In this document: one piece after another, positions 7,383-61,492 of the stretch
How the letters are laid out: every line of letters starts with the position of its first letter
How positions within the stretch are numbered: position 1 is the first letter of the stretch
Source of the DNA: Zygnema cylindricum
Taxonomy: Eukaryota; Streptophyta; Zygnematophyceae; Zygnematales; Zygnemataceae
Length of the DNA: 64,000 nt
Direction: 5' to 3'
Assembly: GCA_037447655.1 (NCBI GenBank)
Contig: JBBHKE010001544.1
Coordinates: forward strand, 129,719 to 193,718
Program-made: the position numbers and the translations under genes
Notes under the pieces: model-generated
What the model saw: the letters and a program-made list of their open reading frames with translations, nothing else
Databases searched by the model: none
Told to the model about the DNA's origin: nothing

Positions 7383-8398
7383 TGTTGAAAATAATTAAAG
7401 GTTCTAAAAGTATTTTCTAGGTCTAAATAGATAGAAAAGAATTACAAGCGCAGGGAGTCTACCTCCACCTTCTCTCTTTAACCCCTATACTTGTTGTAGT
7501 CACTGAAGGAGAGAGAGAGAATAGTGGAGCCATGGCTGCCTCAACTCCACCAATGGAGGACTAATGAGTAACTAAAGTCACTCTCAACAAAAAGGTTGAG
7601 TCCGATAGGATTCGAACCTCCGACCAGTAGAGCATGGCTTCGCCGTTTCTCTTACCGGTGTGTCGTAGTAGTTCGCTAGGGTATATAGGGTTTGACATAT
7701 ACTTAAACAATGTTACGAGAGTAATTTCGATTAACGGAAATGTAAACATAGATACATGTAACAAGTTAAATACAGTGCGGATAAGATTTCACAGGAAAAA
7801 AATTAGTAAGACGTTTTTTTTTTACGGTTGAGATGAGATACTAAAACCTATCCGACGGCGCACATCATCGCCGAGATCCCGGAATGGTCACTTTGGCATT
7901 TTGTGACGTGGCATGACTTGGCACCACGTGGAGAGATAACATTCGGGCACGAGAATTATGAGGAACGTACGGACGACTGAAAAGTGGACACGCGTCTACT
8001 TAATGACCTTGTCGTACAGAGGCCGTACAAAAAGTACATCGGCAGTAGTACTTTCTGGTACTGTACAGTGTTCTGATTAGTTTGTACAGTTAGTAGATAG
8101 GGGTTGTGAGAGGGAACTAGGAAAACTAAGACTTAGGAAAAATCAAGTAGATGGTCCTCTTTCTCTTTGAGAGTTTGTATTAATTGGCATCTTTGCCACC
8201 CTATAACTTATCGCCTGGTTGGGCGTTTTCAAAGATTCTTTTTCCTACGGACTCAGAGGAGTCCAAAATTCAAAAGGGTGCAGTAAAATTGTTTGCTTGT
8301 TTGTTGGGGTAGCTGTGGTTGCCATTGATAGTGTGTTAGTTGATAAATATCTAGAGGCTACCTGAATTCTGTAGTCTAATGGAGGACACAGAATTGCA
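7383..8398 (+). repeat. 3' LTR of copia element A
   Basis: A 1016-bp LTR starts TGTTGAAAATAATT right after the polypurine tract and ends GAATTGCA at 8398. It shares blocks with the B-type LTRs: CTTGTTGTAGTCACTGAAGG near 7488, GAGCCATGGCTGCCT near 7526 and an ACTCAGAGGAGTCCA block near 8250. On the minus strand, 7608-7618 is an exact tRNA B-box, GGTTCGAATCC, although no complete tRNA cloverleaf can be drawn around it. Confidence 0.9.
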
Positions 8399-8400
8399 CC

Positions 8401-9096
8401 TTGTCATTTACTCCACGGGCGATGATCCTCAACAGCCACATCGACCTCAGGATCAAACCGGCTCATCCGCCATCTTTGCCTACCAAACCTAAACTGCCTC
8501 CCAGTTCTGAAAACTACCAAATCAAGAAACAACAATGGGAAAAGGTGTCACTGGAAAGAGAGAAAAAGGACAATCAGGACTGGTTTGAGGGATACATGGC
8601 AGAACGCCCAAAAAATGACACTCCTAATACCCCACCAGTCGTAGATTTTGGCTCCAAGATTGACGAGAAGGAAGGAAAGGATCAGGATCCGCAGAAACTA
8701 GATTCCCCCACATCCTCGATGAAAGTTGCCTTTTCTTCCTCCTAGCCGGTTGTCATGCTAGTCTGGCACCTCATGCCATACCCCCTTACCCATGTTAAGA
8801 CTTTAGCCTCATCCCAAAACCTGCCCAAAGAAATACTCATTCAAGCAATGGGAGAAAAGATCCACTCGGGAAAAGAAAAATTTCACAGGGCAACCGTGAC
8901 GACCTCAATATTTTTGTGTGCAGCTCCGAATACCCCTATGGTAGATAAGGACTACAGAGCCATATCCGTGGCTCTTATACTGAACCGAACATGGAACTTT
9001 AAACTCAACGAGTACGGAGGATACGAAGACGTTGTGGTCGACATTAGAGCGCTCCCCAACCTCATCACAACCTTTGCTTTGAAGAAAATGCCCTAA
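8401..9096 (+). pseudogene. Gag-like region of the DNMT-bearing Ty3/gypsy relic
   Basis: One frame is open across this stretch except for a TAG at 8743-8745. The product is charged and proline-rich at first, with a Lys/Glu-rich helix near 8525-8600, then more globular. I see no zinc knuckle and no family match by eye, so gag identity rests on position upstream of the protease remnant. The start is unknown because the 5' end was removed by the copia insertion. Confidence 0.4.
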
Positions 9097-9139
9097 GAAC
9101 TCCAACCAAAAATATACCCAAAAAACATCTGCCTAAAGC

Positions 9140-9501
9140 ACCGTCAACAACGGCAGTGAGCCAGTCTATGGAATTTTCAAGGCCATGAAAATCGAATTTT
9201 CTGATGACACCGGCCAAGGGTAAAATTTGAGCTTCCTTTCTTAGTGGTGGAAGGGACTCAATTTGAAATTCTGTTGGGAATGGTAACTTCAACACGGCTG
9301 AATATGGGCTTAAGCATGTGGAAAGAACAGTGTACCGTTCGGGACCCGAGAAATCCCGAAGGAACCAAAGTGTTGGTTCATTTAGATTTATGGAACCGAG
9401 GGAAGACAAATGTCCCAGTTTCGGGTTGCTACCCTGTGTATGCTACATCCTTTCCGGCGGAACTCTTTGACAGTTCCACAAATATAGCAGAAGAGATCTA
9501 G
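9140..9501 (+). pseudogene. Retropepsin C-terminal remnant
   Basis: The segment VVEGTQFEILLGM at about 9244-9285 matches the end of Ty3/gypsy aspartic proteases, where a hydrophobic strand leads to an I-L-G-M motif. Sequence upstream (YGIFKAMKIEFSDD near 9165) fits the preceding strand in another frame. The catalytic Asp-Ser/Thr-Gly triad is not recognisable. A TAG at 9499-9501 ends the open stretch. Confidence 0.45.
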
Positions 9502-9639
9502 CAATTCCCCATTTCCAAGCGTTGGGAAGAGGAGTACAAAAATAGATTATTACAAGTGGCGAAATTCCAGCGGGAAGTGGATTACACCTTCTCAACTTTA
9601 TCCTTAAAGAACACAGTTTCCACCATCCTGTCGAGTATC

Positions 9640-10680
9640 CAAAGACAAGTCAGATAGCAAGGAATTCAACATAGAAGTGGTGTCATTAACAATCCCTGAT
9701 GCAAGACTTCGAATTTTATCTCTTTTTTTGGAAATTAATTCCAATTTGGAAGCGGTTCTGAAAAGATGATATCGCGTGGAGTCATATGTTGCAGTGGAGA
9801 TATCACCCGAGGCACGGGCTGTTAGCGAACACCGCCTCCAACAACTACACAATCTATACTCTCAACCGCTTTTAGTGTCTACCATTTCCAAAGCTCACCG
9901 AAGTCTTCCCCATAACATAGAAAACATCATGGCATCACATCTAGCTAGTTTGGGAAGAGTAGATCTTGTGTTGGCAGGATGGCCTTGTCAGAGATACTCC
10001 CTAGCAGGATAAGGAAAAGGGCATTGAGACCGCAAGAGTGTAACATTTTATCAGATGATCAAATTAATCTCGTGGCTTCAACATCTCTAAGACACATCGG
10101 TGGGGTATGTTTTGGAGAATGTTCACCCGGGAGATGATAAACAGAAACAGGTTGCGGAAAGCTGAAATGAGGTAACCTGGATTTTAGGAGCTCCCTTGGT
10201 TTCCGACGCCTTCCAGATGGTATCACGAGCGCACACAGTCAAGGCATATTGGACCAATATGATCCTGCATCTAGTCCTCATGCAAATGTTGGATATGCAG
10301 AAACCTGACCCGAAAATTCTATGCAGCAAATACTTGGGGAAGGAAGAATGGCCACCCCTGTAATAATACCCAACCGCTCTCCATTCTTTCGGTGCAATCA
10401 ACTAGGATTCCCACGGAAAGCACTCCCCACATTAGGTTTTTCCCTTAACAACCACGCATATAGGAAAGGAGCAGCGGGAATGATTCTTAACTGCAACCCA
10501 GGAATCAATACAACACCTACAATCACAGTATGGGAAGAAGCAATGGGATTCCATAAAGGCACCACGGCAACATCGGGTATTTCAGACCTTTAGAGGTGCA
10601 GCCTAATAGGGCAAAGTATGAATTTTATTTCTATCAAATGGGTGCTCAAGCATGCACTCGCCTTTTACAGTCTCACATTC
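9640..10680 (+). pseudogene. DNMT3-like DNA (cytosine-5) methyltransferase domain inside a retrotransposon
   Basis: The domain would transfer a methyl group from S-adenosylmethionine to cytosine C5. In frame 2, RILSLFLEINSN near 9712 is the motif I region with its glycines lost, SYVAVEISPEA near 9780 is motif II, and DLVLAGWPCQRYSLAG near 9962-10009 is motif IV with the Pro-Cys catalytic loop kept. YVLENV near 10108-10122 is motif VI. VSRAHTVKAYWTN near 10215-10255 matches the DNMT3 segment V-S-A-A-H-R-A-R-Y-F-W-G-N. After a frameshift, EEAMGFHKGTTATSGISDL near 10535-10590, followed by a LIGQS-like segment, matches motifs IX-X. The order I-IV-VI-X is that of DNMT3, not the rearranged DRM order. 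Internal TAA, TGA and TAG codons stand where Gln or Arg is expected. The enzyme is inactive as sequenced. Confidence 0.75.
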
Positions 10681-11868
10681 TTGGATATTAAGAGCTACCT
10701 ACCTTCAAGCTCCTCAGTTGTTAGCGATACAGGCAACTTTGCAGCTTGAGGGGGAGAGGGAAACGAGAAAAATTCACATTTCATCACTCCATGTTTTATC
10801 AGTGTGGGGGGGCAGCGGCTCAGATGGCGACACCTTAGCGAAAATTGTCAGCAATAGTGTCCTAGTCGGAGGGGTAGGGGTAGATCCAGTGGTAGGATTT
10901 GAATACGACATTAACCTCTGGGGTAGACCGCTGGAAGCTTGGGCTGCTGTTAAGCCGGGGAAAATGGATTCGACCTTAGGGGAGCTATTGAATCTTGAGC
11001 AAAAGGCAGGGCTCTCCAAACTTTTGGCCAAAAACAAGCAGGTGTTCTCATGGTCAGAAACAGATGTCGTTATTTACAAAGAGACACCTTTCCGAATTGA
11101 TTTGATAGATGAGACGGCTACTGTTTGGCAGAAGCAGTATCCTCTCAGCTTCAAAGAGAAGAAATTCATCACGGCTAAAGTCCAGACCTTGGTGGAAGCT
11201 GGATTGGTTTAGGAAAGTACAAGACTTCATTGGTTTGCTTCCTCGACAATTCTCCCTCCCAAGAAGGACTTGTAGACTATAGATTTTGCGATGTGTGGAG
11301 ATTATCGCATGCTGAACACAGATACCATCTCTGACTGGTATTCGATGTTGACCCCGGAGGAGATATTCAATCATCTTGCTCGAGCCACTATCAACTCGAC
11401 TCTAGATATAAAGAATGGTTTCCACCAGATTGCCATGGAACCGAATCACAAGGAGAGAACGACATTTTGGGTAGGTTCTTGATTTTATGAATGGATTTAC
11501 ATCCCATTCGGGCTAAAAAATCCACTAGCCTAATTCCAACGGGCAATGGACGAAGCGCTCCGAGGAATTAATTGTGCCCGGTGTTATATTTTTTATGTGA
11601 TCATATTCTCAAAGACTTTTGAGAAACACCTGAGCATGTCTAGATTGTTGTCGGGCACTCCAAGCAACGGGCTTGAAATGTCACCCGTGCAAAGGTATTT
11701 TTTGGGTATACAAAATCATTTACCTCGGACATGAGGTGACTCTTGAGACTATGGGTCCCCACATGGTCAAGGTGGCTACCCTTGACGCCTTTCCCCCACC
11801 GCATGACATCTCGACCCTCGATCATAGGGTCTGGCCAACTACTATTGACGGTTTATCCCCGAGTTCAG
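10652..11868 (+). pseudogene. Ty3/gypsy reverse transcriptase of the DNMT-bearing relic
   Basis: A linker (10652-11000) leads into the pre-palm segment LLNLEQKAGLSKLL. The palm follows: MCGDYRMLNTDT near 11291, TLDIKNGFHQIAME near 11400 and YIPFGLKNPLA near 11496. The catalytic Y-x-D-D position reads CYIFYVIIFS near 11580, so both aspartates are lost. A connection region, IYLGHEVTLE near 11720, and an ANYY-RFIPEF remnant just before 11868 place the break at the start of the thumb/connection. In-frame stops occur, for example, at 11210-11212 and 11480-11482. RNase H and integrase are missing. Confidence 0.88.
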
Positions 11869-12189
11869 TGTAGAAATTAATAGTTTTTAAGTATTTTCTA
11901 GGTCTGAATAGAAATAAAGAAGCCTAGGCTTTCTACCTCTAACTTCTCTCTCCATTTCTCAAACTTGTCGCAGTCAATGAGAAATTGGAGAGGGAGCTAG
12001 AGCCATGGCTACCTAGGCTATCGAGAGGTTTACGGGAAATTTATATTAGTTAAAGGGTTTATTTTATCTAAAAGGTATATGCCGGCCACAGGGTTTGATC
12101 CCTGTACCTACCGGCCGGCAGACAGTAGATAGCCGGTAGCCTTAGCCGTTAAGTCTAGAAGTAGTCTTACATAGTATATGGTACGATAA
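11869..12189 (+). repeat. 5' fragment of a TGTTGA-family LTR
   Basis: The first ~320 bp of an LTR related to those of copia A and B, starting TGTAGAAATTAATAG. It keeps the GTATTTTCTAGGTCTGAATAG block, the GAGCCATGGCTACCT block and the internal hairpin. It ends abruptly where a second LTR begins at 12190. Confidence 0.7.
12080..12120. other. tRNA T-arm-like hairpin with covariant stem
   Basis: TGCCGGCC (12080-12087) pairs perfectly with GGCCGGCA (12113-12120), enclosing CAGGGTTTGATCCCTG, which is itself a hairpin. The outer stem sequence differs completely from TTGACGGAC in the sister LTRs while keeping its pairing, a compensatory pattern. Confidence 0.6.
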
Positions 12190-12893: not shown

Positions 12894-13755
12894 GTGACAG
12901 ATTCTTCTACTAAGGACGGTTCTAGAAGATAGAGAAGGGCTTTGACTTGAGAAATCCGTTGCAACGAATCTTTAAATGTCTTAAAAAGGACTGAATGAAG
13001 CCATCTGTACTTTGTACGATTCACATAAAACGGTCCACTTCTATTTGTCGGTCTTTGCGGTCTTGCTTACCACCCAAAATATAATTTTCCGTATAATTTG
13101 TCCAGTTACATTTGTCGGTTAAATGACAACCGTACATGTTTGTTTCGACGCCTTTCAAATGCTGACGAGGTGGATTAGTGACGTGTTGGTGTACTTTTTT
13201 TTTGTACTTTGAGAGGCATATGAGGCCGTACTGTCAAAGTCTAGGCCAATCTTGCCTAATATACAACTGTACGGGCTAAAGGAACAGAGTTTGATTGGTT
13301 TAAATAATTGTCTTATAGGAGAAAAGTGGAATGCGGATAGTACGGTACGGTCGGCAAAGCGTACGATGATTACTGTGCGAATGTGGCGGAAATGGATTCG
13401 AAAAGTTTTGACTCGTACGGTATTTGTACAATTTTATTTCGTATCGCCGTTTCAGTACATGCTGATTGTGTCGCGTTGAGAGCGATGGACTACAGTCGTG
13501 GACGCTCCACGTGGCGGTCATTTCTCGATATGAGTCTACACTTGCTGACTGTCAAAGCGTTCATTCCAAGAGTGCCGATGGCTCCTGTACGGCAAGAAGT
13601 ACGTTTTAGTGTGATTCACTTGACGCCGTAATTAGCGTGAGAATCTACGAATTTCCTTCCAGCGGTCTTCCAGAAGCTTCGGCCATGGCTTCCGGCTAAT
13701 GTTTTTGACCTTCTCTTCGCATATCCGGCGCCAAATTCGGCGTGCGGGTAGTCTA
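12894..13755. other. Intergenic stretch, nothing identified
   Basis: No convincing coding sequence. The stretch is notable for repeated GTAC/CGTACGG words between 13120 and 13620. On the minus strand, 13632-13841 has a short open stretch with WPKLLEDRWKEIRRF that resembles a DNA-binding helix but cannot be assigned. Confidence 0.5.
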
Positions 13756-16700
13756 ATTCGTGCCATTTGACCAACACATTCCATAAATTGCGTGCGTTGG
13801 TTCGCGCCACTCATTTTTGATAAATGTACATTTACAAACACTTTTCCGTACGTTCACTACCCCAATCCGGGAATCCATTCGAACCTCCACAGTAAATCCA
13901 ATTTGTACTTACACACTAAAATCACGTTAAGTACAAATGAAGCATCGCGTACAAATGAAACTTCGCGTACGCACGAAACTAACTTTTCAAAAACAACACT
14001 CCCCCGAAAATTTAGATTCGTGCATCCATGACGTCACGTCATCATCTGTCACACTCAATGGAACTACGCCATCAGCTGTCACCAATGTCACCTCCAGCTG
14101 CCTCCTCCTCCATCTGAATTCGTCAACTGCCTCTAGCATCTAAATCGCCCTTGCTACACCACTGCTTGCGCTTTCGGATCTCTCTCCCCCAAACATCGAA
14201 ACTCCACCTTCCACATCTTTCCACCAAATGGTAAAACTCCACTTTCCTGTCTTTCCCACCAAATATCAAAATTTCCACATTTCGAAATGCTTCACCAAAA
14301 ATAAATATGTAATTTCCAAAAATAAAATATCCTTTCTCAAAATAAATCATTTTCATTGAGGGAAGACATTTCGGCACTGTCACTAAGTTAACCCTTGGGG
14401 CGATGCAAGATTAAACTCGACACATACCAACACTATGATAAGGTCGATCTCATGGGTACACTGACACCATTACTGTAAAACAACCAGCAAGAACAAAATT
14501 AACCCGCTACAATGCGTGTGACACAAACCTATCTCGACTTATCCTAACATATGATAGATGGGGTGTTGGCCCATAACCTGTTGTTCTTTGGTCTAAAATA
14601 GACCACAGAAGCAACCTAAACTATCATGCAAAAAACTAAGCAAAGCTAGGCCAATGAACAGTCATTTGAAATGCATCCTCCATATGCGTACAAAGACGTA
14701 AGAAACAACATTTAGGGATCCGTGAAAATCACAACTCACCCTAAGACAATGCGTACACAGACGCAAAAAAATGCATACACAGATGCATTAAACAACAACT
14801 AGGGTTTCATAGAATAATCAACATAAATAAACCCTATGACAACAACTAAGATTTGATGAAATAATCAACATAAACAAACCTCAAGACAAATGCATTAACA
14901 ATGCATAACAAACAAGCATATAAATAATAACACATGAATGCATCACACATAAACAAATGTATAAACAAATAATCAATTTATCACTCAAAGTGCATGACCT
15001 AATCGACAACCCTAAAATACTACATCTTTGGTCCCCACTTTACTAACCAACATTGATGATTAATTCCTAATAAAGCTCATTCCTATATATACACTTGTGA
15101 GCTGTCAACGAATCCACTAAGTGTCAAAATAACCAACATAAATTACGTAACTGTCATTAAGTCTTATTTAACCATAATAGCCCATTTCTAAGAATAAATT
15201 AATCGTAAGCGTACACGTGAAAGTCTAGCAATCGTAAGAGTACACTTGTCGCAAATATGACACTAAACACACATAAATTAAAGTGTCGAAACCCTAAGTA
15301 TTCACGTAAATAGAAACTGTCATATTCTACACTAATTTATTACTACGCATAAGACAAAACATTGTTTTACCAAATATTTACAAGGACACACAATCTCACA
15401 AAATCGTATGGTGAGTCATGGTCAATAAGTCAAGAGGACTTCTCGAATTTGGTCAAAGCATCCGGAGCGTCCAAAAATACACATCGTGTGATTGTCGCGA
15501 TTTCGCATCCCCATTTGGTGGAAAATATTTGCGACCATTTTCTGCCGTCCGTTGCTCGTATTCGGCACCCTTGATGTCGTGCCGCGTGGTCCCAAATATA
15601 AAGTACAGCTGTCCAAAATTTATGCTCCGTATCGGTGACGTCCTTTTTCGTAAATTCCGCCTGTCGCGTCATGTTTCTTCCATGCGGCGTACCTTTTTAC
15701 ACAATTTGAATTTCATTCGGATCGATTCGCGATCCGCCAACCATTTGACTTATGCGAACCTTACTTTTACATATGTTTGTTCGCGTCACTTAAATTTAAT
15801 TCCGTACGTTTCAAAACAATTCGTGCCATTTGACCAACACGTTCCATAAATTGCGTGCGTTGGTTCGCGCCACTCATTTTTGATAAATGTACATTTACAA
15901 ACACTTTTCCGTACGTTCACTCCCCCAATCCGGGAATCAATTCGAACCTCCACAGTAAATCCAATTTGTACTTACGCACTAAAATCACGTCAAGTACAAA
16001 TGAAGCATCGAGTACGCATGAAACTTCGCGTACGCACGAAACTAACTTTTCAAAAACAACACTCCCCAAAAAATGTAGTTTCGTGCATCCATGACGTCAC
16101 GTCATCATCTGTCACACTCAATGGAACTACGCCATCAGTTGTCACCAATGTCACCTCCAGCTGCCTCCTCCTCTATCTAAATTTGTCAACTGCCTCTACC
16201 ATCTAAATCGCTCTTGCTACACCACTACTTGCGCTTTCGGATCTCTCTCCCCTAAACGTCGAACTCCACCTCAAGAACAAAATTAACACGCTACAATGCG
16301 TGTGACACAAACCTTTCTCGACTTAACCTAACATATGATAGATGGGGTGTGGGCCTTTAACCTGTTGTTCTTTGGTCTAAAATAGACCGCACAAGCGACC
16401 CAAACTATCATGCAAGAACCTAAGCAAAGCTAGGCCAATGAACCATTCGAACCTCCACAGTAAATCCAATTTGTACTTATGCACTAAAATCACGTCAAGT
16501 ACAAATGAAGCATCGCGTACACATGAAACTTCGCGTTCGCACGAAACTAACTTTTAAAAATTAACACTCCCCCGAAAATTTAGATTCGTGCATCCATGAC
16601 GTCACGTCATCATCTGTCACACTCCATGGAACTAGGCCATCAGCTGTCACTAATGTCACCTCCAGCGGCCTCCTCCTCCATCTGAATCTGTCATCTGCCT

Positions 16701-18629
16701 CCACCATCTAAATCGCCCTTGCTACACCACTACTTGCGCTTTCGGATCTCTCTCCCCCAAACGTCGAAACTCCACCTTCCACATCTTTCCACCAAATGGT
16801 AAAACTCCACTTTCCTGTCTTTTCCACCAAATATCAAATTTCCACATTTCGAAATGCTTCACCAAAAATAAATATGTATTTTCCAAAAATAAAATATCCT
16901 TTCTCAAAATAAATCATTTTCATTGAGGGAAGACATTTCGGCACTGTCACTAAGTTAACCCTTGGGGCGATGCAAGATTAAACTCGACACATACCAACAC
17001 TATGATTAAGGTCGATCTCATGGGTACACAGACACCATTACTGCAATACAACCAGCAAGAACAAAATTAACCCGCTACAATGCGTGTGACACAAACCTAT
17101 CTCGACTTAACCTAACATATGATAGATGGGGTGTGGGCCCTTAACCTGTTGTTCTTTGGTCTAAAATAGACTGCAGAAGGGACCCAAACTATCATGCAAG
17201 AACCTAAGCAAAGCTAGGCCAATGAACAGTCATTTGAAATGCATCCTCCATATGCGTATACAGATGCAAGAAACAACATTTAGGGATCGGTGAAAATCAC
17301 AACTCACCCTAAGACAATGCGTACACCGACGCAACAAAATGCATACACAGATGCATTAAAGAACAACTAGGGTTTCATGGAATAATCAACATAAATAAAC
17401 CCTATGACAACAACTAAGATTTGATGGAATAATAAACATAAACAAACGTTAGGACAAATGCATTAACAATGCATAAGAAACAAGCATATAAATAATAACA
17501 CATGAATGCATCACACATAAACAAATGTATAAACAAATAATCAATTTATCACTCAAAGTGCATGACCTAATCGACAACCCTAAAATACTACATCTTTGGT
17601 CCCCACTTTATTAACCAGCATTGATGATTAATTCTTAATAAAGCTCATTCCTATATATACACTTGTGAGCTGTCAACGAATCACTAAGTGTCAAAATAAC
17701 CAACATAAATTACGTAATTGTCATTAAGTCCTATTTAACCATAATAGCCCATTGCTAAGAATAAATTAATCGTAAGCGTACATCTGAAAGTCTAGCAATC
17801 ATAAGAGTATATTTGTCACAAATATGACACTAAACGCACATAAATTAAAGTGTCGAAACCCTAAGTATTCACGTAAATAGAAACTGTCATATTCTACACT
17901 AATTTATTAATACGCATAAGACAATACATTGTTTTACCAAATATTTACAAGGACACACAATCTCACAAAATCGTATGGTGAGTCATAGTTAATAAGTCAA
18001 GAGGACTTCTTGAATTTCGTCAGAGCATCCGGAGCGTCCAAAAATATACATCGTGTGATTGACGCGATTTCGCGTTCCCATTTGGTGGAAAATAACTACG
18101 ACCATTTTCCGCCGTTCGTTGCTCGTATTCGGCACCCTTGATGTCGTGCCGCGTGGTCCCAAATATAAAGTACAGCTATCCAAAATTGATGCTCTGTATC
18201 GGTGACGTCCTTTTTCGTAAATTCCGCCTATCGCGTCATGTTTCGTACGTGCGGCGTACCTTTTTACACAATTTGAATTTCATTCGGATCGATTCGCGAT
18301 CTGGCGTCTATTTGACTGACGCGAACCGTACTTTTACATATGTTTGTTCGCGTCACTTCAATTTAATTCCGTACGTTTAAAAACAATTCGTGCCATTTGA
18401 CCAACACATTCCATAAATTGCGTGCGTTGGTTTGCGCCACTCATTTTTGATAAATGTACATTTACAAACACTTTTCCGTACGTTCACTCCCCCAATCCGC
18501 GAATCAATTCGAACCTCCACAGTAAATCCAATTTGTACTTACGCACTAAAATCACGTCAACAACAAATGAAGCATCGCGTACGCATGAAACTTTGCGTAT
18601 GTACGAAACTAACTTTTCAAAAACAACAA
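13756..18629. repeat. Tandemly duplicated 2.0-2.6 kb repeat of unknown class
   Basis: Three copies of the same start (AATTCGTGCCATTTGACC) lie at about 13756, 15819 and 18386, so the first unit is about 2063 bp and the second about 2567 bp. The second unit has an extra inner duplication: sequence like 14488-14660 recurs at 16272-16442, then the unit restarts from a point equivalent to about 13868. The third unit is cut by a copia fragment near 18630. On the minus strand each unit begins with an ATG reading MSGANQRTQFME, and 15430-15672 encodes an open segment (WTAVLYIWDHAARHQGC core) of unknown family. Copies are clearly alike but with scattered differences. It could be a non-autonomous element array or a local segmental duplication. 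Confidence 0.75.
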
Positions 18630-19334
18630 GAAGCTTAGTATATTTCATGAATTGTACCCGTCTTGACATTACTCCAGCAGTTGGGGTACTGAGCACAAGT
18701 CTAGAGAATCCGAGAAAATCTGATTTTGATGCAGGAAGGAGAGTCTTAAGATATTAAGCAAGAACCAAAGACCTCAAACTCACACTAGGCGAAGGAAAAG
18801 TAAAACTGCAAATGTGGAGTGATGCAAGCTATGGCGACATGCCAAGCCGGAAGTCCACCACGGGATTCGTTCTACAAATTGGGAACAGGACTTGTTGTTG
18901 GAGCAGCAAACTTCAAAAGGTTAGAGCACAGTGGATAATCGAGTCAGAATATATGGCAGCAAGCTCGGCCCTCAAAGAACTCATATGGGTAAAATCCATG
19001 TTATTAGAACTAAGATACATGCAGGTTGATCCATAGGTGATTTGTTATGACAACCAGGCTCTTATTGCCATTGCATCTAACACGAGTCATCACTTCAAAA
19101 GGAAGCACATGGATGTAAGATTACACTTTGTAAGAGAAAAAGTGTTCTCTACAGTGATTTAATTATGTTATTTGCCAGACGCAAAAATGGTTGTTGATAT
19201 GCTCACTAAAGCCCTTCTTGCACCTACACTAAAGAATTGTTGGGACGAAGTGGGATTAAGTGAATAGTTGAATTGCTGCACTGCTATACTGCCACGCTGC
19301 GATAAGTCCAACATTAAGATGTACTGGGAAAGGG
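18630..19334 (+). pseudogene. Ty1/copia RNase H remnant (element E)
   Basis: Conceptual translation gives the copia RT end and RNase H: VYFMNCTRLDI near 18640, VLRY at 18750, MWSDASYGDMPSRKSTTG near 18810-18865 and ESEYMAASSALKELIW near 18940. KMVVDMLTKAL near 19185 closes the domain. The catalytic Asp (WSDAS) and Glu (SEYMA) are present. Stops at about 18757, 19034 and 19160 break it. It begins abruptly inside the duplicated repeat. A purine-rich tract, GGGAAAGGG at 19326-19334, directly precedes the LTR. Confidence 0.88.
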
Positions 19335-25410: not shown

Positions 25411-27329
25411 CTAGGCTTGTCGCGAAGGCGAATGGTTCATTTTATCAAGGAGGGTTGAGGGTTTCACGTTTGGACTCTGCGAAGCGTCGCAGCGTGCGAG
25501 GGTATCGCAACGTCCAACTTTAATAAAACTGCGCTGCTGCGACGAAACGGAGGGTTCGTTGTCACCAATGTGGTGAAACACAATTGCGCCGTTGCGCTTT
25601 CCTGTCAGCGCAGCGGTGGCATTGCATTCCTTTGACGGCACCGTAACCATGTTGCGCTGCGGTGGCTGCGCCGCTATAGCGTTGCGGTGCGGTAACATCG
25701 TCGTTGCGTTTGTTCGCCGCGCCCCCAATATAATTGCGATGGTTGCGACACTTTGATTCGCTCCTTTCTCGCGGCCGCTGCTATTGCCCGTCCAGTGAAG
25801 CCGAGTGTCCTCGCTCCTCTGAAACCGGCGCAATAACTCAGGGGAATGTAGATCCTCCTCGTCCACCCAAGAGTCGTCCTCGGCTCCGTAGCCCTTCCAA
25901 CGCACCAAATACTGGCTGGAGTTGGAATTGCGAGAGCGCCGCGACTGAAGGATCTCTTCCACCTCATACTCGTCCGAGGTACATGTAACGGGTGGTAAAA
26001 GAGTATTCTGCCGTTGATTAGGAAACATCGAATCAGGGTCACGAAATGGTTTAAGAAGGGAAACATAGAAGACATTATGGATATGCCACTCTTTCGGAAT
26101 ATCCAACTTATAAGCCACCTCACCCACACGTGACAGAACTGTGAATGGGCGCGTGAATTTCCGTAATAATTTCTTAGAGAGGGCACCCGGTAAAGAGAGG
26201 TTTGCCATATTAATGCGAACCTTATCACCCACGCTGAAAACGGTTTCGTTCCGGTGAGTGTCGGCCTGTGACTTTTGACAATCCTTTCCAGCTCGAGCGC
26301 CTTCGCCGCCTTTTCCAGGTTCTTTTGCAACGTTTTGGCAAAATCCAGAGTTGACGGCGTAAGGCAGTCCACTACCAATAAGTTTTGTGGGAGGGTGGGT
26401 TGTCGTCCATTGAGAGCGAATGGCGTAGCATTCGTGGACGAGTGCACCGCACTGTTGTACGCCACCTCAATCGCTATTAGATAGTTCACCCAATCCGTTT
26501 GGTGCACCGAGACATAAGCCTGCAACGCCTCCTCCAAAGTCCGATTCACCCTTTCAGTCTGACCATCAGTTTGAGGGTGGTAAGCTGTGGACATGGCCAA
26601 GTGAGTGCCACACAGCTCAAATAGGTTTTGCCAAAAGTGGCTCACGAATTTCCGATCACGGTCGCAGACGATCCTCTTCGGAAGTCCGTGATGGCCGAAT
26701 ATCTCCCGAAAGAATAAGTCTGCGACATCTCGCGCAGTGGCAGTGGTTGACCTGGGTAGGAAATGGGCCATTTTCGTCAAATAATCCACGACGACAAATA
26801 TTGAGTAATAGCCATCTTTAGTCAGTGGGAGAACTACGACGAAATCCATCGAGATCGCCTCCCAAGGAACAGATGGTATGGGAAGGGGTTGTAACAGACC
26901 TTGTTGTCCCTATTCTAATTTGTTGTTATTACAAGAGTCACACGTCCGGACATACTCCGCAATGTCGCGAGTCATGTTCAGCCAGTAATATGCCTCAGCG
27001 ACACGTGCCGTTGTTTTATCCCGCCCAAAATGTCCACTGAGCGGCTCGACATGACTCATTTTAAGTATCACATGACGTAACTCCGGATTTGTTGGAACGT
27101 AAAGTCGTGTTGTCTAACTCGGTCTGTACCGTCACATACCATTGGCGGTTCGGATTATTACCTTCCGTTGAATGAGTTCCTTGATTGTCTCGTCTTCGTC
27201 GTAAGCGGTCTTGATCCTACTTAGCCACCACTTGTCCACTTGCATCGTACTGGTGACTGCGCTGAGTTTCGGATCTTGCGCTACGTCCTACGCTGCGGTA
27301 TTCTTTTTCACAGAGCTTACGTCTACATC
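25411..27329 (-). pseudogene. Chromovirus integrase with GPY/F module and C-terminal chromodomain
   Basis: From the right: a zinc finger end (TCDSC near 26935), the catalytic core with SMDFVVVLP near 26850, IVCDRDRKF near 26670 and DGQTERVNRTLEE near 26555. All three acidic residues are present. After a frameshift near 26240 comes MGDKVRINMANL, then the GPY/F region (FTRPFTVLSRVGEVAYKLDIP) and a chromodomain (YEVEEILQSRRSRN, YLVRWKGYGAEDDSW) at 25960-25810. Chromodomains guide chromovirus integration to methylated-histone chromatin. The ORF runs on about 130 residues past the chromodomain to 25411, longer than usual. Confidence 0.93.
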
Positions 27330-28293
27330 CTACGATGCTTGCGATCGTTGCTCTGCCACTGGAGCAGCAACTCCGGGTCTTCTCGACAGCGCATCCGTCG
27401 GGTTCGTCTTGCCCGGCTTATACTCAATGACAAGTTCCGGCCCGAAGGTTTGAAGAAACGTCATCCATCGCACTTGTTTCTTGGACAACTTCGGCTGTGT
27501 TTGCAGGTACTGTAGGGCGTAGTGATCCGCGATAACTGTGATGTGCTTCCCCTGAACGTAACATTTCCAAACCTCTAGCACATTGATGATCGCAATTGTC
27601 TCCTTATCATGGGTGGCCCAGTGAAGCTCCGCTGCCTTTAATTTTTGATTATCGTAGGCAATGGGTTGTAAGCCTTTTCCTTGAACCTGCATAAGGATCG
27701 CTTCAATAGCCGTATCGCTGCTATCTGTAATTATCGTCCAAGGTAAGTCCAGGTCGGGAACAGCTAACACAGGGGCGGTAACCAACTGCACCTTTAACGT
27801 GTTAAAAGATGCCCCTTGCGCCGATTTCCACTCGTAGGGCACGTCATTCTTGAGTAATTCCTTGAGTGGTGCAACGATTTTTGCGAAACCTTCGACAAAA
27901 CGTCGATAATAGAAGCATAATCACAAAAAGCTGCGTAATTTCGTAATATTTGTCGGCTGCGGCCACTCCTTCACTACCCTCTTTTTGTTCGGACCCACTG
28001 CGATTCCGTCCCGACTCACCACATGGCCCAGAAAATCATTTTTTTCCTTTACGAAGTCACATTTACTCCTCTTTGCGTACAGCTTATTTTCCCAAAGGAC
28101 TTGTAGGACCGTCCGTAGGTGCTTCATATGATCCTCTAGCGTTCGGCTATACACCAAGATGTCGTCTAGAAAGACGATTAGAAACGCATCCAAATATTGT
28201 CAAAACATGGAGTTCATCATATGCATAAAAGTCGCGGGTGCATTGGTCAACCCGAACGACATTACCCGAAACTGGAAATGGCCATACCGAGTT
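27330..28293 (-). pseudogene. Chromovirus reverse transcriptase (second part) and RNase H
   Basis: The fragment resumes reverse transcriptase directly after the LTR insertion with [22 protein letters not shown] (28292-28230), then FLIVFLDDILVYSRTLEDH near 28180 with the catalytic Asp pair, FLGHVVSRDGI near 28030 and LRSFL at 27925. RNase H follows: TIITDSSDTAIEAIL near 27740, ELHWATHDKET near 27620 and KTNPTDALSRRP near 27410. Stops at 28200, 27920 and near 27330 disrupt it. Confidence 0.93.
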
Positions 28294-28990: not shown

Positions 28991-29956
28991 TGTAACAGTA
29001 ATAGCGGATCGAACTTGTTTATAAATGGGTATTTAGGTGTTATAATTATAGAGTAATAAAATTGGTAGACGTCAGCGAAAGAATCACGCTATTTGGAGTT
29101 ATATTTTAAAAGTTATAGCGATGGGTGTATTTAGGTGACAGCGTGGGGTCTAAATAACAAGTGGGTATCATTGAAACGGGTTAAGGGTCAAATTAGTACC
29201 GAAATTACGCGCGTACGTTTCATAAAGTTCTAATGAAACGTTTAGTATGCACGGTGCTTCGTTTCGTACAAATTTTAGTACGAAACGTCACTTTCACTTA
29301 AGGGAATTTCGTAGGAAGTTTCGCGTGCGAAATTTGTTACGCACGCTCGTGCGAAGACGCGTTTCGTTTGGCGCGCAATTTTGCACGTAAATGTTACGTA
29401 GTGAAACGTAACGTTTGATTGGTTAGTAAAGCGCTAAGTAGTTAGTAAGAGATTTCGCACGTTTTTGCATTGGTCAGTCTGAGTCTTTGCTGATCAATGA
29501 TTGGCCCAGGTAAAAGCCTGTTAAAACGGAGCGTTGACTCTGGCCTGGCGAGTCCAGGGCGATGATGGATAAATAGTGAAGTGTAAGAGGAGAGTAGACA
29601 TCTTTTCCTTTGGAAAAGTTTGTGGAAATTCCGGCTGATCTTGGTCCTGAGCGATTAATACCAAATTGGAGAAAAGGCATTTTGCATTGAAATCTCTTAC
29701 TAACTAAATAGTGTTTTAGTAGTTAAGAGATAGAATTATTAAGAGTGGAGAGTAGAGGAAACACTTTAAATTGAAGGGTTGAGCCACGAGGGCAAGAGAC
29801 CAAGCTAATGTTATGTGGACAAAAGCTTCTTCTAATTTAAAGTTATCCTTATGTGAGTGTTTTCCAATGTGGATGTGTATTTTCCAATGTGTGGAATGTG
29901 TGGTTGGAATTGTTTGTAGTAATGGGATTTTCTGAGAGGTAGGAGATCCTGTTACA
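28991..29956 (+). repeat. 5' LTR of gypsy element G
   Basis: The 966-bp LTR begins TGTAACAGTAATAGCGG and ends CCTGTTACA. It carries dense TTTCGTAC/GAAACGT words between 29210 and 29420. A 774-bp leader (29957-30736) separates it from gag. Confidence 0.95.
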
Positions 29957-29958
29957 TA

Positions 29959-29970
29959 TGGTATCGGAGC
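29959..29970 (+). other. Primer-binding site (initiator tRNA-Met type)
   Basis: TGGTATCGGAGC, two bases after the 5' LTR, differs at one base from the common TGGTATCAGAGC. Confidence 0.85.
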
Positions 29971-30736
29971 TTTGGTTAGAAACCAGAGAGAAGTTTGCTC
30001 ACTCGAATATCGATTGCCGTGACCGGTGAGGGTGCTCTAACCTGTGTCGGTAGAACCACAATGTGAAGTGGTAGGGGATTGGAGGGAAACTGAGTGATCA
30101 CACAGCCAGCGGCCGCTGGTTAGATGTGGGGCGTGCTCAGGTCCTAAGGACTAAGGCGGGGTGGGCAGTGTAGCCACCGCCGAAGCTCACTCCAATTACC
30201 TAGAGGCCAAACAAACTTGCCTTCTCCTAACAATGATTCATGTGTAGAGGGAAGGCTTGAAGCCATGAAGGGTGAGGATGTGAGGATTATAGAACAAAAG
30301 ATCCTGATGTAGTGGGAAATGGGGAATTTGCTGATGGTGGAGGAGGAAAGTGGAGTACTTTACTTCTTCAAGAGCAAAGGAGTCCAGAAATGACTCAAAA
30401 CTTTTCAAACCCTAAATTGTTACCTTTGATTGATTTCAATTTTGCTGTTGCAAAATTTATGGTTAAATCTTACCTTTGATAGCTTTCAATTTTTGCTATT
30501 GCAAAATTGGTGGGGAAATTCTTAGATTTATGTTTCAATGTTGGGAAATTGAAAATTTGAATTTGTACTAACTTATTGTCAATGTCTTTTTAATTTCTCA
30601 GATCTTGATCTTTTCAAAGGATTTGTTAAGGAGAAGAAGTTTTGGATTGGAGCAATCTAAGGACTTCAAATCTGCATCAAATTTCTTTGGGAAATTATAC
30701 TCTATCTTTCCTTTTGCTTGATTTAATTGTGTGATA

Positions 30737-32053
30737 ATGGCAAATTCTGCATGGAAACGTGAAATGGAGAATGCTTTGAATGTGTTGAAGAAGCGAACTG
30801 TGAAATTGGTCAAAAGATTTAATAATCATGCTACCGCTGTGGATGAAACCATTTCCGAATTGAAAAGTGAATTAAAAGTTGTCAAAGAAAATGGAAATGT
30901 TTCAAATGAGAAATTAGATGAACTTATTAACTTAATTCAGACCAAGAATGATATGAATGACCAAAAGGGTGAGATTAGTAAAAGGAATGCCAGTTTTAGG
31001 GAGGATGATCATGATAGACCTAAGAAGATAAGGGATCTGAAATTGTCTATTAGTGAGGTACCATCGTTTGATGGTAAGAGGATTGATGAGTTAGATGCTT
31101 GGATTTTTCATATGGAATATTATTTGGAGTCTAGAAATTGCGATCGTGATGATTACACTTCTTTTGCTGTTAACTGTCTGAAAGGCGATGCTCAGATTTG
31201 GTATTATACTCAGAGAAGGTCTAAATTGATTCCTGATAATGCTCATTGGGAAACTTTTAAAACCGCGATCAAATCGCGTTTCTTGTCTGTCACTTTTAAA
31301 TCCAGAATGGAAGAAAAGTGGTTGAATTGTAAGCAGACTGGATCTGTGAAGGATTATATTGTGGAATTTGACTCATCTAGTATTCATGTCATAGGTTTGA
31401 CTGATGAAATGGCTAAATTCCATTTCTTGAACTATTTGAATCCTATACTGAAATCAAAACTAAAACATCAAAAATTTAATAATTTGAAGGAATTACAAGA
31501 TAAGTCATTGGAATTAGAGGATCAGTTGGGGTATAATCGGGAAACTCGATCACTCAGGGGTAATTTAAATGAAGTATCACAGTGGGATGAGGAGGAATTT
31601 GTTGAAGAGGGTTTGAATGCTGGTCTGGTGAATAGGCAAAATATCTTCAGGGAAAATCAAAGGGGTGGACATAGTGTTAATGCAGGAAATAAATTTAACA
31701 ATAGAGGGGGGTACATTAAAAGTCCTAAACCGAACATTAATGCTCAGAAGCCTAACCTTACCATCCCCACATGCACTATTTGTCAGAAAAGGGGTCATAT
31801 AGCATTTGAGTGTGCACAATTGAAAAAGATTAACTGTTATAACTGTGGAGAGGAGGGAGATTTTAGTAGAGAGTGCACAAAACCCAAAAAGAAAGTCACT
31901 TGTTTCAAATGTGGAGGTCCAGATCATTACGCTAAAGACTGTACAGATAAAGGTTCTCTCAAAACAGTCGATGTAAATGAAGGTCTCCAAGACGATATTG
32001 CATTATACCTAGCTGAGCAGGAAGCCCAAGAGGTGGGAAACGGAAAGGAATAA
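30737..32053 (+). CDS. gag: Gag polyprotein of gypsy element G
   Basis: An intact 438-codon frame starts at ATG 30737 (MANSAWKREM). It has an N-terminal coiled coil (to about residue 80), then the retrotransposon gag core with FDGKRIDELDAWIFHMEYYLE near 31065 and GDAQIWYYTQRR near 31180. Three zinc knuckles follow: CTICQKRGHIAFEC at 31771, CYNCGEEGDFSREC at 31834 and CFKCGGPDHYAKDC at 31903. The second has Asp in place of the zinc-binding His. Gag forms the virus-like particle and packages element RNA. The frame ends at TAA 32051-32053, just after the slippery site GGGAAAC. Confidence 0.93.
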   Translation: MANSAWKREMENALNVLKKRTVKLVKRFNNHATAVDETISELKSELKVVKENGNVSNEKLDELINLIQTKNDMNDQKGEISKRNASFREDDHDRPKKIRDLKLSISEVPSFDGKRIDELDAWIFHMEYYLESRNCDRDDYTSFAVNCLKGDAQIWYYTQRRSKLIPDNAHWETFKTAIKSRFLSVTFKSRMEEKWLNCKQTGSVKDYIVEFDSSSIHVIGLTDEMAKFHFLNYLNPILKSKLKHQKFNNLKELQDKSLELEDQLGYNRETRSLRGNLNEVSQWDEEEFVEEGLNAGLVNRQNIFRENQRGGHSVNAGNKFNNRGGYIKSPKPNINAQKPNLTIPTCTICQKRGHIAFECAQLKKINCYNCGEEGDFSRECTKPKKKVTCFKCGGPDHYAKDCTDKGSLKTVDVNEGLQDDIALYLAEQEAQEVGNGKE

Positions 32054-32069
32054 CTGAAAGTCCTCAGTT
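32035..32069 (+). promoter_or_regulatory. Putative -1 ribosomal frameshift signal between gag and pol
   Basis: GGGAAAC (32035-32041) lies in the gag frame as G-GGA-AAC, the canonical X-XXY-YYZ slippery heptamer. Shifting back one base enters the pol frame, which is open from there. Ten bases downstream AACTGA (32052-32057) and TCAGTT (32064-32069) form a perfect 6-bp hairpin. Confidence 0.7.
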
Positions 32070-35000
32070 GAGTCAACCGGATCCACAAGTTAAAAAGTTA
32101 ACTTTGGAGGGCAAATTAATGAATGGAAAAGTTAGGATAGCTGAATTTATTATGATTCTCACTACACTGCATAGTTTAAAGAATCCTTCTGATGAAATTC
32201 TCAACAACAGACCTATGTTAGGACAGTTAAGTAATGATGACACCAGACACAGTTTGATTAGATTCGAGTCATTAGTGGAAGGAAAACCGTTGAAAGTAAT
32301 GGTTGATTCAGGTGCCACACATAATTTTATTTCCCATAAGTTTGTAGAGGAAAATAAAATTCCTACTGTCATAAGGGAAAAGCCTTTACATGTTCAAGTG
32401 GCAAATGGTAATAAGTCCACATTAGACTTACAATTTGACACGATAGAAGTTGATATCCAAGGTCATAAAATGAAAGTTGTGTGTGAAATAATGAATTTGG
32501 GAAGTGAAGAACTAATTCTAGGAAAGCCTTGGTTAACAGACCATAATCCTCAAATTAATTGGGAAATTAACACCTTAAAAGTGAAGTCTGAAAACGGTTG
32601 GAAGGTTTTGCATGCATTATCTCCTAAGAAATTGCATAGGAATCATATAAATAACATAATCAGATTGGGAGTAGAAGGTTTGATATCTGCTAAACAATTT
32701 AAAAAACACTTAAAAGATAAAACGAATCATGCTTTCTTGTTATTAGTAACTGAGGCAGTTACTGATGAAGGGGGTGGAGAAAACACTAACATTGATGTCA
32801 TCCCTAAATCTAACACCACTAAAACTTTCGAAAAACTAAAATCTGATTTTGTAACTGACATTAATACATCTGATAATGTTGTTAAGGATTTGATTTTTGA
32901 ATTTCTAGATGTTTTCCCAAGTGATTTACCCTCGGGAAGGCCACCTTCCCGAGATGTAGAACATGTTATTAACCTTGAACCTGGATGTAATCCTCCTGTC
33001 ACAGGAATTTATAAACACAGTTTCTTTGAGCAAGAGGAGTTAAAGAAACAGATCAAAGAACTCTTATAGAAAGGACATATTCAACCCAGCAAATCACCGT
33101 ACGGAGCACCTGTTCTTTTCGTCAAAAAGAAGGACGGAACGTTGAGAATGTGTGTCGATTATCGTAGTCTGAACAAGATTACGGTGAAGGATAAGTATCC
33201 GTTACCTTTAATTTCTGATTTGATAGATCGTTTAAAAGGTGCTAAAGTATTTTCGTTGATTGACCTGCGTAATGGCTTTAATCAGGTGCCAATTAGAATT
33301 GAGGATGTTGATAAAACTGCTTTCAGGACTAGGGTGGGTCATTTTGAATGGATAGTGATGCCATTCGGCTTAACGAATGCTCCGCCTACATACCAAAGAT
33401 TAATGAACCAAACTTTTTCGGATTACATAGATGAGTTTGTTCAGGTGTTTATTGATGATATTCTAATTTACAGTGAATCTAGAGAACAACATGTAATTCA
33501 TTTAAGAAAAGTGTTAGAAAGGTTAAAAGAAAGAAAATTATACGGAAAATTGTCAAAATCTAGCTTTCTGAAAAGTGAACAATTATTTTTGGGACATATA
33601 GTTAGTGGGGAAGGTGTTAAAACAGATCCATCCAAAATCACTGCAATCCAAAATTGGAAGCAACCTACTAATATCACGGAAGTTAGATCATTTTTGGGAT
33701 TGGCCACTTACTACAGGAAATTTATAAAGAACTTCAGTATGATTGCCGCACCTTTGACGGAATTACTTCGGGAAAATGAGACGTTTGTGTGGGGAGCTGA
33801 TCAAGAGAGAGCATTCAAGGAACTAAAAGGGAAGTTGACCTCTGCCCCTACACTGGTGTATCCTGACCCTGCTGGAGAATTTGAAGTTCTGATCACTACA
33901 GATGCTTCTGACAAAGGTCTAGGTGCAGTCATAAGTCAAAAAGTCGGCAAACACTTTCATCCTATTGCTTTTGAGTCCAAAAAATTCAATGATGCTGAAA
34001 AGAACTATACAGCACAGGAAAAAGAATTACTTGCGATTGTACATGCATTGGTGAAATGGCGATTTTATTTGCATAATAAAGAATTTACAGTTCACTGTGA
34101 TAATAAAGCACTTTCTTATTTACAGAGATTAAGTGATGCACAGATTATGACTGGCAGACAGGTTAGGTGGATGCAAAAATTAGCATATTTCAAATTTAAT
34201 GTCAAACATATTCTTGGGAAGACAAATGTAGTTGCAGATCCTTTAAGTAGATGTTTTGAAATAAGTGTTATGGTTCAGGATGAATTGTTTTTAGATACAG
34301 TTAGATATGGTTATGATAAAGATCCTTATTTTGTTGTGATTTGCAAGAATATTTTGGGAGGGAATTCTGACCCACTGAATGAGAGGCATGTCAAAAACTT
34401 TAGAATAGAAGATGGTTTACTATATTTGCGAACAGGGGATAGGTTATGCATTCCTGAAATGGGAGACTTGAGAAAACAACTTTTACAGGAAGCCCATGAG
34501 CATTTAGGAGATCTTGGTTGAGATAAAACTCTTAGTCGGCTGCAGAGTAGATTGTTTTGGCCAGGGATGGCAAAGGAGGTGTCGAAACACGTGGAAAGTT
34601 GTGTCCCTTGCCAACAGAGTAAACCTAGCAACCAGAAACCTAGAGGTCTCTTAAAACCTTTAGATATTCCCGAAAGACCATGGGAATCTGTCAGTATGGA
34701 TTTTATTGTCAGGTTACCAGCTACATCTAGAAGAAATGACAGTATCATGGTCGTAGTCGATAGGTTCAATAAAATGGCAATCTTTATCCCTTGCAAAACT
34801 ACTCATTCAGTTGTAGATATTGCAAAGTTATATTTTGACAACGTGGTCAGACATCATGGAGTTCCCCTGTCTATAGTCAGTGATAGGGATTCTAAATGTA
34901 CATCTGCATTTTGGAAAGAATTGCAGCAAAATTTAGGCACTGAATTGAAAATGAGTACCGCTTATCATCCTCAGACAGATGGACAGACAGAAAGGATGAA

Positions 35001-35754
35001 CCGTACACTAGAGGAAATGCTTAGGACTGTTTGCAGTGGAGTTCAGAACACATGGGAATCTAAACTGCCATTAAAGGAATTTGCATACAATTCATGTAAA
35101 CATGCTAGTACGCGATTCTCACCATTTGAAGTTGCATACGGATACCAACCTAGAGAAGCATTAGACTTAATAACAGGGGTCACTCAAGAGAATAGAGGTT
35201 CAGGAACAGAGTTTTGGGAATACATTCAAACAGTTTGGAAAACTGTCCGGGATATATTAGTGGAGGCACAAAGGAGGCAAGAATTAAATGCTAACCGCAA
35301 ACGGGGTGATTAGGTGTTACGCACAGGCGACAAGGTTTGGCTTTCTACAACTCATTACAGGTGCAAGATCGAGGGACAATCGGATCCTATGGGAAAATTT
35401 GCTCCTAAGTACATTGGACCATTTACTGTAACCGAGATGATATCGTCAGTTGCTGCCAAGTTGGAATTGCCGCCTTCAACAAAGATTCATCCAGTGATAC
35501 ACATCAGCCAATTGAAACCAGTAAAACTTCGCCCAACTGAAGGAGAATTGGAATTGGATCCCTCAATAATTATAGAACCTGAAGTTCACAGATGGGTTAT
35601 AGATTGGGTTGGTCAACGGTTCAAGGTCGGTGATACTATATTCTGGCAAGTGCATTATCTAGGAAGGCCTGAGGATGAGTTGGCTTTAGAGGATAAAAAT
35701 TCTGAGTTTTTACAGAGGTACTGGAGGGATAATAATATAGAAGTCCCGTCTTGA
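32042..35754 (+). pseudogene. pol: Pol of gypsy element G: protease, RT, RNase H, integrase, chromodomain-like tail
   Basis: One frame (-1 to gag) covers all domains. Protease VMVDSGATHNFIS lies near 32300, RT near 33100-33700 ([34 protein letters not shown] with both aspartates), RNase H near 33895 ([12 protein letters not shown]) and an integrase zinc finger near 34500-34620. The integrase core has MDFIVRLPA, SDRDSKCTSAFW and DGQTERMNRTLEE with all three acids. The C-terminus has a GPY/F module (YIGPFTVTEM) and a weak chromodomain-like fold (VIDWVGQRF, FWQVHYLG). Three in-frame stops interrupt it: TAG 33067-33069, TGA 34519-34521 and TAG 35311-35313. Otherwise the frame is fully preserved. 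Confidence 0.93.
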
Positions 35755-35790
35755 TAATTAAAGGTGTTTTAACTGAGGTCAGTTAAAAAT

Positions 35791-35800
35791 AAAGAGGGGA
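35791..35800 (+). other. Polypurine tract of gypsy element G
   Basis: AAAGAGGGGA lies three bases before the 3' LTR and would prime plus-strand synthesis. Confidence 0.8.
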
Positions 35801-35803
35801 TGA

Positions 35804-60572: not shown

Positions 60573-60804
60573 CATGTCAGGTCGTTCAAAAGTAAAATAA
60601 AGTACACTCAACCTGCCCGGAAAAAACGTACATTCCGACGTACAAATATCACAAAGGAGGAAAGTACAATCATTTCCAGGGACCATTTTCTTCCTTCTAA
60701 GACAAGTCTTTTACAAGCTCTTTTCTCTGTCATTTTTTTATTAATTTTCTCTTTTATCCTCCAAATTAGGTCAAATTTAAGAACAAAAAATCTTCTTTTA
60801 CAAC

Positions 60805-61482: not shown

Positions 61483-61492
61483 NNNNNNNNNN
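61483..61492. other. Assembly gap (10 N)
   Basis: It falls inside the purine repeat; the length of missing DNA is unknown and the right side does not resume the repeat. Confidence 0.95.

Follow-up and report, generated by a model that had tools for sequence, protein, structure and literature searches.

Capture of methyltransferases by retrotransposons was described by de Mendoza et al. 2018 (PMC5890265). According to the text and a figure legend of that paper, the Gypsy element KnitGypsy-Dnmt3 of Klebsormidium nitens has repeats in the arrangement A-coding-B-A-B (legend of Fig. 4) and a methyltransferase under purifying selection (Ka/Ks < 0.2), and SymbioDIRS-Dnmt3 of Symbiodinium is active on CG in yeast. 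Passages of two other papers report DNMT3 in retrotransposons of streptophytes and dinoflagellates, named as Copia and DIRS (PMC12344493), and, in an opinion of 2019, the absence of methylase-bearing transposons from land plants such as tracheophytes (PMC6338049). Here we analyse a stretch of 64,000 nt from the alga Zygnema cylindricum (the window; C1156:129719-193718, C1156 being contig JBBHKE010001544.1 of a 352.8 Mb assembly of 2,689 contigs). Positions 8401-11869 of the window are an internal piece of a Ty3/gypsy element comprising a protease region, a DNMT3-type C5-methyltransferase and a reverse transcriptase (RT). An earlier inspection of the letters alone (the sequence-only reading) had proposed such an element, and the published precedent that it named is real.

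Anatomy of the window copy

For Pfam matching, the window was translated with stops read as X. Positions 9653-10330 match PF00145 significantly (E 3.7e-7; 30.3 bits, cut-off 22; 29.6 bits for 9653-10582), the match being limited to profile positions 44-111 of 324, from motif IV to motif VI; in relatives the alignment extends along the whole domain, with 48% identity to protein P0002 over 9695-10261. RVT_1 (PF00078) is matched by 11219-11869 (E 7.3e-11, 42.6 bits), and the window RT groups with those of P0001 and P0002 at 100/99 in the RT tree; profile match and trees bear out the assignment to Ty3/gypsy. The Pfam scan of the window gave no protease match; the gag-end and protease part is matched by P0121 over window positions 8404-9393. 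The sequence-only reading had placed the motifs of the methyltransferase and the RT in a single frame. This holds for motifs IV (GWPCQRYSLAG), VI (LENV) and VIII (YWTN) and for most of the RT (frame mod 3 = 2); a second frame holds motifs IX-X (10309-10758), and a third the last part of the RT (11652-11819).

Table 1. Parts of the Ty3/gypsy copy in the window and the adjoining nested repeat.
Feature	Position	Strand	Frame (mod 3)	Basis and remarks
End of gag and protease region	8401..9498	+	1	25% to P0121 residues 440-745, E 7.5e-10; collinear with copy 2
In-frame stop TAG before CAATTC, protease/methyltransferase border	9499..9501	+		stop at the same place in 8/8 copies
DNMT3-type C5-cytosine methyltransferase, decayed	9695..10758	+		PF00145; alignments to P0001 and P0002
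Methyltransferase piece a	9695-10336	+	2	motifs I-VIII
Methyltransferase piece b	10309-10758	+	1	motifs IX-X
Linker, methyltransferase to RT	10759..10924	+		52 codons; dN/dS against copy 2
Ty3/gypsy-type RT, decayed, ends before RNase H	10925..11869	+		RVT_1; 52% to P0001
3' long terminal repeat of the nested retrotransposon, not the gypsy element's own	7383..8398	+		direct repeat with window -342 to 675

The window copy is dead and cannot make the enzyme. Stops are present in every part of it, together with frame changes: piece a of the methyltransferase has 5 over 210 codons, piece b 2 over 150 and the RT 4 over 242. The other frames of the same spans have 8-14 stops, and base-shuffled versions of piece a have 12.0 on average, 1.4% of the shuffles being as low as the observed 5. 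The protease motif DTG has become DIR, motif I is broken (LFSG to LFLE) and one Arg of motif VIII is lost.

Upstream of the window, the copy starts with an A repeat (from C1156:124136) and gag. A nested long terminal repeat (LTR) retrotransposon then interrupts it, and it resumes at window position 8401, its left edge there being the end of the nested LTR. On the right, the copy is truncated before RNase H, and the 3' end is missing. The LTRs of the nested element (C1156:129376-130393 and 137101-138116) are 87.7% identical over 1019 nt, and collinearity of the gypsy element with copy 2 (below) runs up to C1156:129375 and starts again at 138119. Positions 7700-8377, considered as an LTR of the gypsy element itself, were rejected as such, being part of the nested element.

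Other copies in the Zygnema genome

The comparison within C1156 covered 313 of its 427 kb, window included. Copy 2 (C1156:30530-17754, minus strand) is full-length and decayed. Its gag, which has two CCHC motifs, is followed by a protease (DTGA) and the UAG; then come the methyltransferase, RT, RNase H, integrase and an end that is PHD-like. The window has the same order (74.4% over 3488 nt), and the placing of the methyltransferase between protease and RT in the sequence-only reading thus stands in both. The repeats of copy 2 are arranged A-coding-B-A-B (A1 30530-29353, B1 19497-19212, A2 19209-18043, B2 18039-17754), with 90.5% identity between the A repeats and 97.2% between the B repeats. 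The ends are TGTC and GACA, and GC separates B1 from A2. The arrangement was seen in this one copy, the window copy having its A repeat upstream and no 3' end. A target-site duplication of 4-6 nt is not evident at the ends of copy 2, where another repeat abuts the 3' end. Five in-frame stops lie over 28453-20819, the UAG counted among them, and one methyltransferase stop is at matching places in the two copies (TGA at window 10025, TAA at 23527 of copy 2). Copy 3 (C1156:116863-119979) contains gag and protease but, of the methyltransferase, the start only.

Genome-wide, at least 123 scored PF00145 matches were obtained among 782 candidates, a count that includes host genes and single exons. 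Six further copies, chosen for long frames, were fetched. Five of them have the methyltransferase and the RT in one frame without a stop over 694-713 codons, and all five keep the catalytic Cys and Glu; the sixth has a frame change inside the methyltransferase. They represent two subfamilies, two copies being near P0001 with PCQ at motif IV and four near P0129 with ECQ.

The two domains are thus carried by one element in other genome copies as well. A host DNMT3 gene or pseudogene lying beside an RT by chance, or a chimeric assembly, might have been suspected from the window copy alone, which is fragmentary; this explanation is refuted by the order in copy 2, by the single open frame in five of the six fetched copies and by the same order in proteins P0001, P0002, P0006, P0121, P0129 and P0142.

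Type of the methyltransferase

Among solved methyltransferases, the enzyme is closest to DNMT3 by sequence and by predicted fold, in agreement with the type first assigned to it. Motifs I-X are unrearranged in the relatives and in copy 2, with PC(Q/N), ENV and RxR; ENV is replaced by ENT in 10 of 38 relatives. NCBIfam gave, for the methyltransferase, only a dcm match below the cut-off in three of four proteins, and a BFVD fold search returned phage methyltransferases and viral RTs. In a methyltransferase tree of 45 rows, rooted on DNMT3A/3C segments and four IMG/VR sequences only, two phage enzymes join DNMT3 (100/96) and the element enzymes stand apart (96/76).

The nearest solved relatives, DNMT3A-C, are DNA enzymes, and the tRNA enzyme DNMT2 ranks far lower. 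This makes it very improbable that the substrate is RNA, such as the element transcript or a primer tRNA, although de Mendoza and colleagues raise RNA methylation, in the text of their paper, for enzymes of LINE (long interspersed nuclear element) type (PMC5890265).

Selection

Among ten pairs of copies, eight are saturated and one is nearly identical; the sole informative pair consists of two uninterrupted copies, L037 and L038. Between these, the ratio of non-synonymous to synonymous substitution rates (dN/dS) is 0.13 (0.07-0.23) in the methyltransferase and 0.07 (0.02-0.17) in the RT. The decayed window copy and copy 2 give 0.12 in the protease region, 0.20 (0.15-0.28) in the methyltransferase, 0.11 in the RT and 0.80 (0.40-1.72) in the 52-codon linker; read in the wrong frames, the three domains give 0.86-1.62 and the linker 0.62 and 0.46. 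The comparison with the RT, which the sequence-only reading had suggested, thus reveals purifying selection on the methyltransferase in both pairs, somewhat weaker than on the RT.

Relatives and domain orders

With the RT region as query, 226 of 5568 candidate proteins matched at E ≤ 1e-3, the best 120 being listed; the first two, P0001 and P0002, have PF00145 and PF00078 in one protein. The decayed methyltransferase region found no homologue at E ≤ 1e-3 among 1527 candidates, and the methyltransferase region of P0001 found 35 proteins, itself included, among 5035. According to purpose-built hidden Markov models (HMMs), 19 of the 35 also have RT, RNase H or integrase. In the remaining 16, a long N-terminal part precedes the methyltransferase, and CCHC and DSG/DTG motifs are seen there in the proteins inspected. 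Judged by source names, ten of the 35 are from Marchantia polymorpha. The RT matches listed include Klebsormidium nitens, Closterium sp. NIES-54 and Calypogeia fissa; the Closterium methyltransferase is a short HMM match only, without Pfam support, and no methyltransferase was found in the Calypogeia protein or in two K. nitens proteins, which may be pieces from a second open reading frame (ORF2).

Two main domain orders were observed. Order A, (gag-CCHC-protease)-methyltransferase-RT-RNase H-integrase, has the methyltransferase before the RT, as do the six proteins named above; order B, RT-RNase H-methyltransferase-integrase, is found in eight proteins and two cut ones. RT, RNase H and integrase follow one another in P0001 and L005, and copy 2 is collinear. 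A PHD finger follows the integrase in both orders (P0022 and P0129 of order A; 8/10 of order B). P0001, the nearest relative of the window copy, has no Pfam PHD match, and its end, like that of copy 2, is PHD-like by eye only. Three relatives of order B have PCE at motif IV.

In an RT tree of 55 chosen rows, 39 rows form one clade (100/99). Besides the window, it holds 11 rows of order A, 8 of order B and 19 in which the protein with the RT has no methyltransferase. The B proteins are one clade (100/100) within A, grouping with P0142 and P0031 (94/87) and then with P0129 (90/87). Because of this nesting, the place before the RT looks ancestral, with one move to the gap between RNase H and integrase; the direction is not firm, as a quicker RT tree of 83 rows contrarily puts B at the base of the clade (88). 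The methyltransferase tree likewise unites the B proteins in a single clade (100/99). The 39-row clade of the RT tree includes two RTs of K. nitens that lack a methyltransferase (P0019 and P0020). P0021 groups with L005 (100/99), whose methyltransferase sits in ORF1, and for this reason many rows lacking the enzyme may be ORF2 pieces.

L005 is the one relative among 102 pattern matches in bacterial and archaeal genomes; in viral contigs, 4 of 12 pattern matches are relatives, all distant. Together with L007 it stands for a member of the family on a contig (CADCWO010000201.1) that was binned with a cyanobacterial genome in a metagenome assembly. Judged by its content, the contig is eukaryotic contamination of the bin; its ends overlap by exactly 127 nt, as if the assembler had closed a repeat-bounded element into a circle.

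Two further proteins lie outside the clade. P0151 (2531 aa) has a methyltransferase before the protease and the RT of another gypsy line; it is outside the clade in both RT trees, on a long branch, and is perhaps a separate capture. The gypsy relative P0041 has a Dam adenine methylase before the RT (35.6 bits, cut-off 28.1) and a PHD finger after RNase H, and lies, also on a long branch, just outside the DNMT3 clade (94/86).

A conserved stop codon

The sequence TAG CAA TTC stands at the border of protease and methyltransferase in seven of eight copies (window, copy 2, copy 3, L039, L040, L041 and L043); the eighth, L042, has a stop at the same border and then a second stop. The frame continues in the same phase past the stop in copy 2 and in L039 to L043, and is shifted in the window. 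L005 has its stop, TAG CAA TCA, between methyltransferase and RT, and the methyltransferase can therefore fall on either side of the stop. The readthrough stop of the tobacco mosaic virus type is UAG-CAR-YYA, which the L005 sequence fits at all six positions. The conserved UAG-CAA-UUC is a probable readthrough site between protease and methyltransferase.

Proposed function of the methyltransferase

We propose, with a probability of about 0.6, that the window contains a dead copy of an element of the KnitGypsy-Dnmt3 kind, in which a Pol-level methyltransferase obtained by readthrough likely serves de novo methylation of the element's own complementary DNA (cDNA), with steering by a PHD finger. 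In working copies, gag and protease would be made first. Readthrough of UAG-CAA-UUC would then yield the methyltransferase, RT, RNase H, integrase and PHD-finger-like end, so that the enzyme would be made beside the RT and probably packaged with it. Its likeliest job would be de novo cytosine methylation of the double-stranded cDNA of the element, before or at integration. By analogy with DNMT3A and SymbioDIRS-Dnmt3, the target cytosines may be those of CG. The PHD finger would direct the integrase to certain nucleosomes. Of this picture, the anatomy, the DNMT3-type sequence and predicted fold, the conservation of catalytic residues and of the UAG, the purifying selection and the inheritance of the enzyme together with the RT are observed; the readthrough, the packaging, the substrate, the part played by the PHD finger and the benefit are deduced.

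Several observations weigh against this proposal. In yeast, no DNA methylation was obtained with the K. nitens domain, a result described in the text of the paper as inconclusive since human DNMT3B failed too (PMC5890265). At motif IV, where PCQ is otherwise almost universal, the Pro is replaced by Glu (PCQ to ECQ) in 11 of the 38 relatives with a letter there. The stop of the window type fits UAG-CAR-YYA at only five of six positions and, where the stop lies after the methyltransferase as in L005, the enzyme is not always made at the Pol level. The observed/expected CpG ratio is 0.60 in the methyltransferase element, against 0.47 in a young gypsy element and 0.24 in the nested element of the same window; CpG depletion was rejected as a sign of self-methylation, the element being no more CpG-poor than its neighbours. 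Copy 2 has lost the catalytic Cys (PSQ for PCQ) though the element is recognizable end to end, and the constraint on the methyltransferase is weaker than that on the RT.

These last two points also favour a passenger enzyme, carried along after capture and dispensable for transposition; with the stops matching at 10025 and 23527, the Cys-to-Ser change suggests that the source of the two copies may have moved without the enzyme. The dN/dS of 0.13 between L037 and L038, the catalytic residues invariant across relatives and the Cys and Glu kept in every open-frame copy render a passenger improbable. Alternatively, the target of the methyltransferase could be host chromatin or the site of integration, and not the cDNA within the particle; new insertions would then soon become silent and harmless, or host silencing would be altered. 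The PHD finger in the same polyprotein, the abundance of PF00145 matches in the genome and the L005 enzyme on the Gag side of the stop are in keeping with this; the physical link to the RT and co-inheritance with it suit a role in the particle, and we consider an action on the host plausible yet unlikely.

Retrotransposons are usually victims of DNA methylation. The retention of a DNMT3 by one of them, under selection, suggests a benefit of methylation for the element. More tentatively than for the cDNA proposal itself, we can picture a gypsy lineage that has long persisted in green plants and the algae akin to them and that may combine a DNMT3 writer and a PHD reader in one polyprotein, for self-methylation and for targeted, tolerated insertion, with a modular 'methylase slot' kept by selection. 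If so, the writer would be movable, before the RT or in the RNase H/integrase gap and on either side of a leaky stop, and replaced by an adenine methylase in one relative. The Zygnema genome is a strong test bed for such ideas: PF00145 matches are many, there are two subfamilies, and uninterrupted copies can be set against decayed ones as controls.

Other features of the window

The young gypsy element (28991-36770) has 300-nt terminal-repeat blocks that are 100% identical and another 134 nt at 99%; a methyltransferase was not seen in it. A chromodomain gypsy element lies on the minus strand at 25411-28277, with Chromo and Tf2-1 SH3 matches in 25411-26466 and RT/integrase similarity to 28277. 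A tandem duplication occupies 13755-18684: its unit, about 2.57 kb long, has a 505-nt sub-repeat, and several blocks show 94-99% identity. The dispersed repeat at 11889-12170 recurs in many places of C1156, with identities of up to 89%; by eye it has a reversed tRNA-like box, and it is perhaps a short interspersed nuclear element (SINE). A piece of a gene of the plant-specific family DUF538 lies at 60781-61557 (PF04398, E 1.3e-19), in accord with a host of the plant lineage. Neither a tRNA gene nor an Rfam match at gathering score was found in the window.

Comparison with known systems

The element enzymes resemble cellular DNMT3A/3B in motif order and in the predicted fold of the catalytic domain. 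They differ in lying inside a retroelement polyprotein, in which an ADD or PWWP domain was not seen, and in reading AGWPCQG and WTN where DNMT3A has GGSPCN and WGN. The Dam-type methylases of DIRS elements, as presented in passages of PMC5890265 and PMC6338049, are likewise DNA methylases serving as accessory domains of retroelements; they are adenine enzymes described as structurally unrelated, yet the gypsy relative P0041 has a Dam domain. SymbioDIRS-Dnmt3 shares a DNMT3 in Pol, two coexisting domain orders and A-coding-B-A-B repeats (PMC5890265), but is a DIRS element with a tyrosine recombinase, whereas the RT, RNase H and integrase of the Zygnema type are those of gypsy.

In the text passages of the literature searched, we met no report of copies in Marchantia, of a methyltransferase shifted to the other place, of a PHD finger behind the integrase or of the in-frame UAG. 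In the searched text of PMC5890265, the words PHD and protease occur 0 times, and a UAG before the methyltransferase is not mentioned. The closest system is KnitGypsy-Dnmt3, a Gypsy element whose Pol frame includes a DNMT3-type domain, with repeats arranged as in DIRS and with purifying selection. It differs in its host, K. nitens, and was compared by text and Fig. 4 legend rather than by drawn domain order. Because the repeats of copy 2 follow the published A-coding-B-A-B arrangement, the Zygnema element belongs, on its sequence features, to the KnitGypsy-Dnmt3 kind. This kind is wider than Klebsormidium, extending to Marchantia, to metagenomes and, by a short piece, to Closterium; the Marchantia copies bear on the statement quoted above from the 2019 opinion (PMC6338049), Marchantia being a land plant and not a tracheophyte.

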